IMG/VR virus record: IMGVR_UViG_3300028844_008239
Coordinates: 1-24,278 of that record
DNA length: 24,278 bases
Reading direction: 5' to 3' (one strand)
Source of the DNA: a virus
In this document: in pieces, positions 19,927 to 24,278 of the stretch
Position numbering within the stretch: position 1 is the first letter of the stretch
How the letters are laid out: each line of letters starts with the position of its first letter
Program-made: the position numbers and the translations under genes
Notes under the pieces: generated by a model
What the model saw: only the letters and a program-made list of their open reading frames with translations
Databases searched by the model: none
What the model was told of the DNA's origin: nothing

Positions 19927-20397
19927 ATGTTTTTTAAAAAAGACACAACACTAGATCGCGAAGCGGTCTTTGAACAACTCAAAATTGATGAAGGAGTAGT
20001 ACATGAAATCTATCTCGACCACCTCGGGTATCCCACCTTTGGAGTCGGTCACCTTATCCTCGAAAGTGATGAGGAACATGGAAGGCCAGTTGGAACTCCA
20101 GTTAGTGAAGAAAGAACACGGGCGTGTTTTGAAAGAGATCTTGACATTGCCATCGGAGAGTGTGAACTATTATACGAAGATGGGGTCTTTGGAGACTTAC
20201 CAGACGAAGTACAGCAGATCTTGGTCAATATGATGTTCAACATGGGTAGAACAAGATTAAGTAAATTTAAAAAAATGCATGCCGCTATCTTAGAAGGCGA
20301 CTGGAAAACAGCCGCAGTAGAAGGTAGAGACAGCAGATGGCACAAACAAGTAACTAACCGTGCTGAAAGATTGATGGAAAGATTAGAGAACGTATAA
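19927..20397 (+). CDS. T4-type lysozyme (GH24 endolysin), 156 aa
   Basis: Catalytic E22 (DEG), D31 (YLD) and T37 (PTFGVGH) keep exactly the E-9-D-6-T spacing of T4 lysozyme E11, D20 and T26. Other family segments are V-Q-Q-I-L-V-N-M-M-F-N-M-G, F-K-K-M-H-A-A-I, and the tail N-R-A-E-R-L. It hydrolyses peptidoglycan between MurNAc and GlcNAc. There is no signal peptide, so it needs a holin to reach the wall; the gene at 19600-19827 is the obvious candidate. A late promoter precedes it. Its stop overlaps the next start (TAATG), coupling it to the head-protein candidate at 20397-21059. Confidence 0.95.
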   Translation: MFFKKDTTLDREAVFEQLKIDEGVVHEIYLDHLGYPTFGVGHLILESDEEHGRPVGTPVSEERTRACFERDLDIAIGECELLYEDGVFGDLPDEVQQILVNMMFNMGRTRLSKFKKMHAAILEGDWKTAAVEGRDSRWHKQVTNRAERLMERLENV

Positions 20398-21059
20398 TGA
20401 AAATAACTGATTTTTTAAATGAAGCAGATCAAGTTAAGGCAAAAGAAAAAAAGCCTAAAAAGATTAAGCCTAATAAAGGTAACGAAAGTCCACATCCTAT
20501 GAGAGGAAGACTTGTTGGGGAAAGTAAACCTCAAAAACAAAAACCTTATGACCCAAATAAAAATCAGCCTAATCCAGTAGCAAAGCATTCACGTAATAAA
20601 AGTGGTGCTGGTTCTCATAAGTCTGCTAAAGATTATGATAGAAAAAATAAACAATCAGACATTAGATCACAAATGGATGAAGGTACATACGTTGCCGACA
20701 GAATGGATGTTTTAGATTTTATATTAAAAGAAATTAAGAAAGAAGCATACAAAGATATCGGTATGATAAAACACCTAGCAGATATGATAGGTAAGAAAGT
20801 TAGTGTAAGATATCACAAACATAAAAAAGAAGGCGGAGTATTGCAATTAGAAATGTATGATGGCAATATACCTTTTAATAAGTGTCCACAATGTGAAGGT
20901 GAGATAGTTCACATTGATGAGGCAGAAGGCAAAAATGATGCTTGTTACCACAAAGTAAAAAGCAGATACAAAGTATGGCCCAGTGCTTACGCCAGTGGTG
21001 CATTAGTACAATGCAGAAAGAAAGGTGCTAAGAATTGGGGAAATAGTAAGAAGAAATAA
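20397..21059 (+). CDS. Candidate internal head protein with capsid-targeting peptide, 220 aa
   Basis: The N-terminus MKITDFLNEA resembles the T4 internal-protein capsid-targeting peptide (MKTYQEFIAEA) and has an L-x-E/A site after residue 9, the gp21 prohead-protease consensus. A second match, I173-D-E/A176, would release the C-terminal 45 residues, which are basic and contain DACYHKVKSRYKVWPSAYAS, a segment I recognise as widely conserved in T4-like phages. Residues 11-90 are Lys/Asn/Pro-rich and disordered. A C163-P-Q-C166 pair may bind metal. It is predicted to be packaged, cleaved and possibly injected. Processing is inferred; no protease gene lies in the window. Confidence 0.75.
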   Translation: MKITDFLNEADQVKAKEKKPKKIKPNKGNESPHPMRGRLVGESKPQKQKPYDPNKNQPNPVAKHSRNKSGAGSHKSAKDYDRKNKQSDIRSQMDEGTYVADRMDVLDFILKEIKKEAYKDIGMIKHLADMIGKKVSVRYHKHKKEGGVLQLEMYDGNIPFNKCPQCEGEIVHIDEAEGKNDACYHKVKSRYKVWPSAYASGALVQCRKKGAKNWGNSKKK

Positions 21060-21060
21060 C

Positions 21061-21396
21061 ATGCTAATCAAAGAAATTATAGAAGACATAACTACTCTTA
21101 ATACAGAACCTAAGTTAGGTAAACTTCCACATGAAGAAGTAGAGTCAGTTATCCATCAATGGGTCAATCAAGAAGATCACATAGAATTAAGTAATGGCAT
21201 GCATGTACTCAGTGGTGAGAATCACGGCTATGATGATAATGTAGCACTCATAGTTGATGCTGATTATAAAATATTGGATCACGATGATGACATTGTTGAA
21301 CTAATGCAACAATTCACAGCACAAGAAATAGACCCAAGCATTGTAGAAACAATAAAGGGTAAGGCCAAAAATGTTTCTAATACCAAAGGGAAGTAA
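21061..21396 (+). CDS. Hypothetical protein, 111 aa
   Basis: The start is placed at 21061 (MLIKEIIEDI), 1 bp after the previous stop; an earlier ATG would overlap that gene by 35 bp. It is soluble and acidic, with a middle that looks like a small alpha/beta fold (ALIVDADYKILDHDDD) and a short basic tail. The N-terminus loosely resembles the MK-x-x-FL-x-E-A peptide of its neighbours but ends E-D rather than E-A, so no cleavage site is claimed. Function unknown. Confidence 0.66.
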   Translation: MLIKEIIEDITTLNTEPKLGKLPHEEVESVIHQWVNQEDHIELSNGMHVLSGENHGYDDNVALIVDADYKILDHDDDIVELMQQFTAQEIDPSIVETIKGKAKNVSNTKGK

Positions 21397-21402
21397 ATAA
21401 GT

Positions 21403-21663
21403 ATGTATTGGTTATTCATATTAGCATTAAAAAGCATTCTATCAAGTATAATTGGTAGTAGTTTTTATCAATGGTTTAAGAATACAAAAGCCGGCGTATG
21501 GTTTCAAGTAAAATTAGACAATACAATGGAATGGGTTGCAGAAAGATACGATATCGAAATTGCCACTAAAGAAGATAAGTGGTTATCTCAATATCCAAAC
21601 TTAGCAAAACGTATAGAGGACCTGGAAAAGGAAGTAAAAATATTAAAAAATAAAAAGAAGTAA
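21403..21663 (+). CDS. Membrane-anchored coiled-coil protein, 86 aa
   Basis: An 86-aa protein with an N-terminal hydrophobic helix (about 2-18), then W-F-K-N-T-K-A-G-V-W-F and a charged C-terminal helix with heptad-like spacing (LAKRIEDLEKEVKILKNKKK). One-pass anchor plus cytoplasmic or periplasmic coil. In size and shape it could be an i-spanin-like or scaffold protein, but it lacks any diagnostic feature. It is coupled to the basic 56-aa gene, whose ATG follows its stop directly. Confidence 0.66.
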   Translation: MYWLFILALKSILSSIIGSSFYQWFKNTKAGVWFQVKLDNTMEWVAERYDIEIATKEDKWLSQYPNLAKRIEDLEKEVKILKNKKK

Positions 21664-21834
21664 ATGGCAAAAGCAAGTAACAGAAACAAACACACATCAC
21701 TAATAAATGGAAAAGGAAGAAAATGCTCTTCTATTGGAGTTGGAGGCAGAGGCAGAAAAACTAAAGTTAGTATGTCGACTATGAACAAGTCTAAGAAAAG
21801 ACAATTAAAAGTTTATAGAGGACAGGGGAAGTAA
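21664..21834 (+). CDS. Very basic 56-aa conserved phage protein
   Basis: Read by hand: ATG immediately after the TAA at 21661-21663, 56 codons, TAA at 21832-21834. The sequence is Lys/Arg/Gly/Ser-rich with KCSSIGVGGRGRKTK in the middle and MSTMNKSKKRQ then Y-R-G-Q-G-K at the end. I recognise the S-S-I-G-V-G...M-N-K-x-K-K-R...Y-R-G-Q-G pattern from tiny T4-like cyanophage proteins. It fills the gap between two genes with 0 and 1 bp spacing. Probably binds nucleic acid, in the virion or on ribosomes; function unproven. Confidence 0.75.
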   Translation: MAKASNRNKHTSLINGKGRKCSSIGVGGRGRKTKVSMSTMNKSKKRQLKVYRGQGK

Positions 21835-21835
21835 C

Positions 21836-22048
21836 ATGCCAGTAAAATTTGGAAAAACAACTATTGTTAAAGACAGACAAACTGGTAAACTTACAACACA
21901 ACATGAGTACATGAAGTCTAAATCCAAAGAGGAATTATTTGATTATATCAATAATGGACAAAAACCTAAAATTAAACAAAAATGTCGTAACGAACTTACT
22001 AGGCGCGGAGTTAAAATAGTTTATGTCGATAGATCATCAGAAGAATAA
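21836..22048 (+). CDS. Small basic protein, 70 aa
   Basis: A 70-aa protein with KFGKTTIVKDRQTGK at the N-terminus, then H-E-Y-M-K-S-K-S-K-E-E-L-F-D-Y-I-N and K-C-R-N-E-L-T-R-R-G. Basic and without membrane segments. Short proteins of this pattern occur in marine T4-like phages without known function. It overlaps the oxygenase gene by 26 bp. Confidence 0.66.
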   Translation: MPVKFGKTTIVKDRQTGKLTTQHEYMKSKSKEELFDYINNGQKPKIKQKCRNELTRRGVKIVYVDRSSEE

Positions 22049-22745
22049 CGAACCTCTTTTTTCTATAGTAGATATCAGAAACCCTAAAATATTAGATATA
22101 TTAAACACCAGTGTGGAATTAGGGTTGTTTGATGATACATCAAAATCAAAAATTAAATACGAATCCGTAGACTACGAAAAAGAATCTATAACATATTGTA
22201 GCATTGACTTTTTTAGGAATGTAGTCGAACCTAATAAACAGAACCACGGCAGAGTCAATAAAGACTTTTGGATTGATGCAAATGGAAATGAACGTTCAGG
22301 TGCTGGTCCAATTAAACACAAAAAGAATGGCTTTGCAGATAAAACTCCAGGTGGAAAATACTTTATAAAATGTTTTGAAGATCTCACAGGTTTAGATATG
22401 GGTGATGGCTCTCAAGATTTTGCAGGTTTTAGATCAAGTACTTATAATCCAAACGGTTATTTAGGTTGGCACAAAGACGATCACTATGGTGTTTATACTA
22501 TAATGTTTAGTTATTGTGTAGACAATCCCAATGGTTTTTACAGGTGGGTAGACAATCACACTGGAGAAATTACCACATTACCAGATAAGTCTGGATGGTC
22601 TTGTAAGTCTATGATCATGATAGATGACGAACATGCAGAATGGCACACAATATATACTGCCACTCCTAGATGTTCATTAGTACTAACATTTGGTGATTTT
22701 GCAGATTATGTTAAGTTAAGAGATTTTATTCAATCTGATAAATAG
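22023..22745 (+). CDS. 2-oxoglutarate/Fe(II)-dependent oxygenase, 240 aa
   Basis: A 240-aa protein. YNPNGYLGWHKDDHYGVYTI gives H150-x-D152, and EWHTIYTATPRCSLVLTFG gives the distal H208 and the 2OG-binding R216, eight residues on. This is the prolyl-4-hydroxylase/AlkB-type double-stranded beta-helix signature. The family hydroxylates protein side chains or demethylates nucleic acid bases; the substrate cannot be read here. 2OG oxygenases are common in marine T4-like phages. It overlaps the previous gene by 26 bp. The next late promoter overlaps its stop codon. Confidence 0.85.
   Translation: MSIDHQKNNEPLFSIVDIRNPKILDILNTSVELGLFDDTSKSKIKYESVDYEKESITYCSIDFFRNVVEPNKQNHGRVNKDFWIDANGNERSGAGPIKHKKNGFADKTPGGKYFIKCFEDLTGLDMGDGSQDFAGFRSSTYNPNGYLGWHKDDHYGVYTIMFSYCVDNPNGFYRWVDNHTGEITTLPDKSGWSCKSMIMIDDEHAEWHTIYTATPRCSLVLTFGDFADYVKLRDFIQSDK
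22737..22744 (+). promoter_or_regulatory. Late promoter (GATAAATA) of the large terminal gene
   Basis: GATAAATA spans the last codons of the oxygenase gene and lies 28 nt before the ATG at 22773. Confidence 0.5.
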
Positions 22746-22772
22746 TATTAAGTATTAAACAACGGATATTTT

Positions 22773-24278
22773 ATGAAACTTTATAAATTTTTAACAGAAG
22801 CAATAAACTATGCAGAACCAGATCCCAAACCAGAACAAGATATCGTAGATAAATTTGCTGGTGTAAGTGATAAACTTCGTTCATATTACATCAACAAATG
22901 GGCTGAAGAAAAAGGAATCGATAGCGACGATGCTATGTTCAAAGCAGGCTATATAAAAGATGGTTACATAGGTCAAGGAGCATGGAACTGGCGTTATGTG
23001 GGCATGGACGAAAGTATTCAGGAAGGCGAGGAAAGAAGTATTATACAAGATGCAGTAGTAGATCATTTAATAGAAACATTTGGTGGTCAAAATTGGATGA
23101 TATTTGCTGATACTAGAGAACAACTAGAAGCAAAAATGTATGATGAGATCGAAACGTTAAGTGTAGAAGAAGTAGTAGATCCAAATATGGAAGTAGGTGG
23201 ACAACCAATTGGAAACTTTGCTAGTGGTAGAGTAATAGATGTTATAGATAGCAGTAGTGCTATTGAAAGTGCAATGCAACATGTAGAAGGATTAGACGAA
23301 GGCAAAAGTCCACACAAAAAAGGTTCAGCAAAATATAAAAAACACATGGCGGCTATGCATGCCGAAGATGTAAATGACAGTGGAATGATCGGTGTGCCAG
23401 AGGCAGAATTATCAGAAAAGGCAACCATACCTGTAAAAGGATATACCGATGCCTATGACTTTATAAGTGATTTTTGGTTCTATGGTCATAATCCAAGCGA
23501 AATGCTAAGTCACACCGGACCTAGATCTAGACCAACTTCGATCTTTTTTAAAGATCCAAAGCATAAAGAATTAGACAAATTTTTAGATGACAACGACATG
23601 TCGGGTTCAAAACTACACTACGACGAACTTAAGGTTGTATTATGGTTAGCAAAGAAAATGAACATTAGCCCTATGACAGTTTTACGTTATGGTAGTGATT
23701 CAATTAGATTTGACACTAATACTATTAAAGCAGTAAAACAAAAAGTAGCAAAATCAAAACGCATTAAAGAAGCAGAAGAGGGAATGATTGGTACGCCTGA
23801 TGATTACTATGATGCCGAAGAACGCAAAGAAGCATACGATGATTTACAGACTGCTTTAGATGGTGTTAGGAACGATTGGGAAAAACAAAGTGTTATAGAT
23901 GGTGTATGTCCAGAGTGTAGCGGATCGTCATACATGGACGGTGACTATGACAATGATGAAGACAGTTGTTATGGTTGGGGCAACTACGGTTGTGATCAAG
24001 GAGAGATGGAAAATGCCAGTTGGGTAGAAATCATTAAGTTTGATCAACAAAATGTAGATAAACAAAAAGCCAAAAGAGGCCCTGCTCCAGATAAAGAAAC
24101 AGTAATGAAAGTACTACCACGTTTACATGATGACTATGTTAAGAGTGGAAGATTTAATGCTATGGAACTACCTGGCATACTTAGACAAATGTATCCAGAG
24201 TTAGGAAAAAGAGAAGCCGCTGGTTATACAGCAGAGTTTTTCAAAACCTTCAAAGAACATGCAGAATTACAAAGATTA
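22773..24278 (+). CDS. Large candidate internal head/virion protein, partial (at least 502 aa)
   Basis: Read by hand: an open frame of 502 codons from the ATG at 22773 to the window edge, no stop. The N-terminus MKLYKFLTEA is the same type of capsid-targeting peptide as in the gene at 20397, with L-x-E/A after residue 9. Further L/I-x-E/G,A sites occur at L174-D-E/G177 and I331-K-E/A334. A Lys/His block follows the first internal site (K-S-P-H-K-K-G, then KYKKHMAAMHA). G-M-I-G-x-P occurs twice (204-209 and 337-342). A Cys cluster (C379, C382, C399, C407) looks zinc-binding. It is probably cut into several virion peptides by the prohead protease. The true length is unknown. Confidence 0.78.
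   Translation, partial: MKLYKFLTEAINYAEPDPKPEQDIVDKFAGVSDKLRSYYINKWAEEKGIDSDDAMFKAGYIKDGYIGQGAWNWRYVGMDESIQEGEERSIIQDAVVDHLIETFGGQNWMIFADTREQLEAKMYDEIETLSVEEVVDPNMEVGGQPIGNFASGRVIDVIDSSSAIESAMQHVEGLDEGKSPHKKGSAKYKKHMAAMHAEDVNDSGMIGVPEAELSEKATIPVKGYTDAYDFISDFWFYGHNPSEMLSHTGPRSRPTSIFFKDPKHKELDKFLDDNDMSGSKLHYDELKVVLWLAKKMNISPMTVLRYGSDSIRFDTNTIKAVKQKVAKSKRIKEAEEGMIGTPDDYYDAEERKEAYDDLQTALDGVRNDWEKQSVIDGVCPECSGSSYMDGDYDNDEDSCYGWGNYGCDQGEMENASWVEIIKFDQQNVDKQKAKRGPAPDKETVMKVLPRLHDDYVKSGRFNAMELPGILRQMYPELGKREAAGYTAEFFKTFKEHAELQRL

Follow-up and report, generated by a model that had tools for sequence, protein, structure and literature searches.

Two proteins encoded near the end of a virus record of 24,278 bp, probably a fragment (the whole stretch is hereafter called the window), begin with nine residues that resemble the capsid-targeting peptides of T4 internal proteins. 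The original prediction read them as polyproteins that are processed inside the capsid and injected into the host, which raises the question of whether their internal motifs are cleavage sites and what the released pieces would do. We consider it quite likely that both proteins, together with one encoded between them, are capsid-targeted modular polyproteins that would be cut by a gp21-type protease and whose basic modules would be kept in the head.

Layout of the locus and its phage

Protein 1 (20397‒21059, plus strand, 220 aa) consists of the targeting peptide MKITDFLNE (20397‒20423), with a predicted cut before Ala10, a basic region, and the C-terminal module A (residues 176‒220, 20922‒21056, net charge +10, pI 10.1). 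T4 gp21 cleaves after L/I-x-E (PMC9026906). Protein 1 has [LI]xE/[AG] sites (slashes mark predicted cuts) at residues 9 and 175, the latter being IDE175/A176 (20919‒20924), and further [LIVMF]xE motifs at residues 42, 95, and 112.

Protein 2 (22773‒24278, plus strand) is cut by the window end after 502 aa; its relatives have 668‒684 aa and end in module E behind TFE/AEYQGRK. Its targeting peptide, MKLYKFLTE (22773‒22799), is likewise predicted to be removed before Ala10. The [LI]xE/[AG] sites of protein 2 are located at residues 9, 84, 176, and 333, and further [LIVMF]xE motifs at 80, 101, 133, 210, 215, and 495. Module B, GKSPHKKGSAKYKKHMAAMHAE (residues 177‒198, 23301‒23366, net charge +5), directly follows the predicted site LDE176/G177 (23298‒23303), and a basic cassette of 118 residues (216‒333, 23418‒23771) is flanked by LSE/K and IKE/A. 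Acidic segments and basic modules alternate along the protein (pI 4.1, 10.1, 9.5, and 4.4), and its acidic C-terminal portion contains a segment rich in Cys, CPEC...C...C (23907‒24020), that possibly binds metal.

Between these two proteins, an acidic carrier protein (MLIKEIIED..., 21061‒21396, plus strand) ends in VE96/TIKGKAKNVSNTKGK, the tail of module D. As judged from its sequence, it belongs to the same system as proteins 1 and 2. Next to a closely related copy (G003), it looks internally deleted: module C is gone, and little of module D is left. A separate ORF of 56 residues (21664‒21834, net charge +17, pI 12.0) lies between the polyprotein genes and possibly encodes a free-standing head protein.

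Neither a terminase nor a capsid gene was seen within the 24-kb window. In a terminase search, the relatives were placed near jumbo phages such as PA5oct: the terminase of a related contig (G005) shares 58% identity with that of Pseudomonas jumbo phage PA5oct, and a 306-kb relative (G010) carries that terminase (54%) together with gp21 and gp23. From these relatives, we infer that the window derives from a marine jumbo myophage of the broad PA5oct-like group. Another head type had been suggested by a first gp21/gp23 search, in which both genes were present in only 3 of 23 records, and was set aside on the terminase placement and G010.

Recurrent basic modules and their junctions

Many matches of protein 1 span only its last ~45 residues, and many of protein 2 only residues ~174‒198. 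About ten recurrent short segments emerged when 2,286 non-redundant proteins of the fetched loci were screened by k-mers. Profile searches then located these segments in 239 proteins, where they often follow one another, for example as D-A-C-F or J-D-A-C-F. The modules are short and Lys-rich, mostly with two Cys residues (pI 9.5‒10.7), and the carrier segments are mostly acidic (pI 4.1‒4.5). The two window proteins are members of a large, unnamed protein family of marine phages.

Six module families (B‒F and J) are preceded by [LIVMF]-x-Glu in a mostly fixed register. In counts of non-redundant instances, with each module anchored at its first conserved residue, Glu occupies position −1 of the 22-aa module B, the position of site 176, in 37 of 39 copies, with a hydrophobic residue at −3 in 69%. 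For module C, Glu is found at −2 of the anchor in 38 of 62 copies (hydrophobic, 65%), and the corresponding values are 41/55 for D (75%), 26/27 for E (85%), 18/19 for F (58%), and 18/19 for J, where the hydrophobic residue is present in 19/19. A sizeable minority of C and D copies are without the Glu site, and the recurrent segments G, H, and I, which have no such site, were left out of the counts. Since binomial p-values over all instances overstate independence, we prefer counts with one representative per unrelated upstream context. These give Glu in 27/28 contexts for B, 32/35 for E, and 11/11 for J, and the complete [LIVMF]xE in 16/28, 30/35, and 10/11, against 2.1% per residue in other proteins; the fractions for C and F in this count are too low, as their regular expressions admit unrelated matches. 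Two of the internal gp21-type sites that had been proposed are not a matter of chance: site 175 of protein 1, at the start of module A, and site 176 of protein 2, directly before module B, adjoin short basic modules that reappear in phage proteins with no other resemblance to each other.

Module A differs from the six families in that its motif Glu lies at a variable distance, 3, 4, 6, or 8 residues before DACY. Relatives of protein 1 or its module A are found in 365 GenBank phage records. Module A shows 92% identity at the protein level and 43% at four-fold degenerate sites; recent DNA exchange alone is therefore insufficient to explain its conservation, and these values indicate that purifying selection acts on its protein sequence. 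The idea of a released zinc-binding module does not hold for protein 1, since its CPQC pair stands upstream of site 175 and a cut there would separate the pair from module A. Module B is known here from IMG/VR contigs only, and tblastn searches of GenBank phages with protein 2 and with module B gave no matches.

Site 333 had been taken as a site of protein 2 proper. It is instead the border of an insertion (residues ~207‒333) that is missing in the two closest relatives (G002 and G003). The 118-residue cassette within this region recurs in another locus (L092) on a different carrier, again directly after an [LI]xE/K motif (IEE/K), and that carrier belongs to the family of the third window protein. 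In relatives of the third protein, its module junction is followed by modules C and D, module C with other sequence, module B, or the cassette. The presence of differing modules at the same junction of one carrier points to exchange.

Among known families, DUF6321 matches the consensus of module F, which is absent from the window, with 87.2 bits (cut-off 28.5), and module F occurs in 541 phage records. DUF5872 matches the consensus of module A weakly, with 16.6 bits, under the Pfam cut-off of 27.5. The PHROG matches are families of unknown function. Structure models of the modules reached modest confidence (pLDDT 66 and 76); the model of module E had no match in the PDB, and that of module A was too weak for a fold search.

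Targeting peptides, virion proteins and the prohead protease

The reading of MKITDFLNE/A and MKLYKFLTE/A as T4-type capsid-targeting peptides is borne out by published virion proteomes, in which cyanophage proteins with starts of the same type were detected by mass spectrometry. S-SCSM1 gp91 and S-CREM2 ORF154 were found in virions (PMC9602691, PMC10665884), and by sequence they begin with MKSFLQFLKE/A and MKNFSSFLTE/A. The virion enzymes with such a start are an NMNAT in S-SCSM1 and a cytidylyltransferase in S-CREM2. Module-bearing proteins are also listed: S-SCSM1 gp29 ('virion protein') and S-CREM2 ORF137 and ORF160 were detected in CsCl-purified virions, the two S-CREM2 proteins by 4 and 7 unique peptides; N-termini are not given in these proteomes, and the authors caution that some such virion proteins may be purification carry-over (PMC9602691, PMC10665884). 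The module content is D-A-C-F in gp29, F in ORF137, and D-C-A in ORF160, and the homologue in Synechococcus phage S-P4 is annotated as structural protein T4-GC0119. Two virion-listed proteins, S-CREM2 ORF160 (L396:35343-36236) and S-SCSM1 gp97 (L397:23122-23307), each include a stretch similar to the mature N-arm of the phage's major capsid protein (GFTGxxAxEGPxAGYDPLM); this stretch is perhaps a docking mimic.

Using a strict regular expression over whole contigs, we counted two targeting-peptide-like starts in the window, against 0.23‒0.26 expected from shuffled N-termini. Since the excess over the six tested contigs taken together is only about threefold to fivefold, the N-terminal pattern alone is evidence of moderate strength. 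More than 25 distinct M[KR]-peptides are joined directly to module starts, e.g., MRASEIITE/KCWKGYEKK, MRARDFITE/DLRAWF, and MKINEILNE/GKSPHKKG, the last of which (L156) is followed by module E; a peptide with one module is thus the minimal form. Matching sites are also present in the major capsid proteins of these phages (FLAE/A, LLTE/A, and LSE/A) and in their gp21.

Small podo- and siphophages have modules E and F as well; there, module E forms its own gene, e.g., MAKYQGRTVKLNKP in Pelagibacter phage Kolga. In the fetched loci, fused module E has Glu at P1 in 81/84 copies, Ala at P1' in 77/81, and L/V/I/M/F at P3 in 75/81, and reads [LVIM]xE/AEYQGR, whereas all eight free copies read M/AKYQGR, with the start Met at the Glu position followed by Ala. 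The Glu therefore seems dispensable to module E itself. Several free copies of module F start within about two residues of the Glu position of the fused copies, and others are longer with a different N-terminus.

The distribution of the gp21 family (PF03420) parallels this difference. All five GenBank myovirus records that carry fused modules have a member, as do four large contigs, including G010; among small phage records the count is 0/9. Exceptions among these nine are CRP-6, whose diverged module E is joined to another domain, and CRP-2, with a diverged start. By eye, this other domain of Roseobacter phage CRP-6 (L222:835-1524, without gp21) looks XkdF-like, which agrees with a viral structure match to a protein named XkdF. 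Stand-alone module F genes of podophages (L216‒L218) have genes for head assembly, scaffold, or capsid as direct or near neighbours. The gp21-like protease expected of such a phage was found in the larger relatives, G010 among them, and not within the 24-kb window; gp21 and gp23 are also absent from the fragments of the nearest relatives, and the tie of the window proteins to gp21 runs via the larger relatives.

Possible roles of the modules and comparison with known systems

The polyprotein logic and the basic modules of the original prediction are supported by these comparisons: the targeting peptide, the internal gp21-type sites, and the basic modules stand, and the zinc release at 175 and the conservation of site 333 fall away. 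We regard the architecture, a modular polyprotein with a capsid-targeting peptide, as quite likely, and from it we infer the cutting, the retention in the head, and the role of the modules. As in T4, the 9-residue N-terminal peptide would draw the precursor into the prohead core, where a gp21-type prohead protease would cut after [L/I/V/M/F]-x-Glu. This would take off the N-terminal peptide and detach small modules of strongly basic charge (A and B, and E in full-length relatives) from the acidic carriers. The released modules would remain in the head beside the DNA.

We think that binding or condensing packaged DNA is somewhat likelier for the modules than a host effector role, since their charge and their conservation across hosts fit it. 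Under either role, the modules could afterwards reach the cell along with the DNA; their injection seems a possibility somewhat short of even. The same processed polyproteins could, however, deliver host-takeover effectors comparable with T4 IPI or Alt, a plausible alternative that we would not favour. T4 ejects internal proteins that bear such peptides, among them the antirestriction protein IPI (PMC9026906), and both the cyanophage virion enzymes bearing the targeting peptide and the swapping of modules like cargo would suit effectors. Nevertheless, conservation of the modules is high among phages of both cyanobacteria and heterotrophs, and their stand-alone versions adjoin head genes in several podophages, so that a head or DNA role suits them better than a host-specific target.

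Alternatively, the modules could belong to the scaffold or core and be lost from the head after cutting, as with T4 gp22, gp67, and gp68. This would account for the likeness of the acidic carriers (pI 4.1‒4.5) to core proteins, which gp21 cuts at many sites (PMC9026906), but is unlikely, given that module proteins are found in mature virions and that the modules are basic, conserved, and survive as free genes in phages without gp21. It is more improbable still that hydrophobic-x-Glu merely belongs to the module fold or reflects linker bias, with the proteins working uncut. Glu-rich linkers are common (linker background of ~10% within four residues), and the motif may be shared by descent where the upstream sequence is homologous; yet the register is fixed before several sequence-unrelated modules in unrelated contexts, and in free-standing module E the position of Glu is taken by Met. 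Returning to processed head proteins, we tentatively, and at less than even odds, extend the proposal to marine T4-like and jumbo myophages at large, whose heads may be filled with combinatorial, protease-cut basic proteins that are exchanged as site-bounded cassettes, pass into the host along with the DNA, and work inside it.

This organisation offers a testable functional frame for uncharacterised protein clusters found across hundreds of sequenced phages and predicts exact mature N-termini from the module junctions. The comparison of fused and free-standing modules makes cleavage sites readable from genomes alone. An interchangeable set of small proteins could be packed together with the virus DNA, which points to a natural, cassette-based means of loading phage heads with proteins.

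The targeting peptide and the cutting by gp21 are already known from T4. We found no description of an exchangeable module series with its own sites in the open literature searched, although such absence is not proof. The Pfam domains of unknown function DUF6321, which is module F, and DUF5872, which resembles module A below the cut-off, have no link to head processing in the sources examined. T4-GC0119, with PHROG 727 and 3477, is the cyanophage member of the window family (modules D, A, C, and F); it is listed as structural or unknown, and its module and site organisation is not described in those sources. The ejection proteins of SPN3US and the phiKZ type are likewise packaged in a jumbo phage and matured by the prohead protease, which removes long propeptides from one mature protein; a module series was not found in PMC10052503. 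The T4 core proteins gp22, gp67, and gp68 share the acidic segments and the many gp21 sites, but their pieces mostly exit the head, and a series of conserved basic modules is not described for them in PMC9026906. Also close, by peptide type and cleavage-site pattern, are T4 IPI, IPII, IPIII, and Alt, which combine a short N-terminal peptide of the same type and an L/I-x-E cut with basic cargo inside the head. Whereas these T4 internal proteins have one cargo per peptide, the window family carries recurrent modules in series, each with its own site and swapped between carriers.
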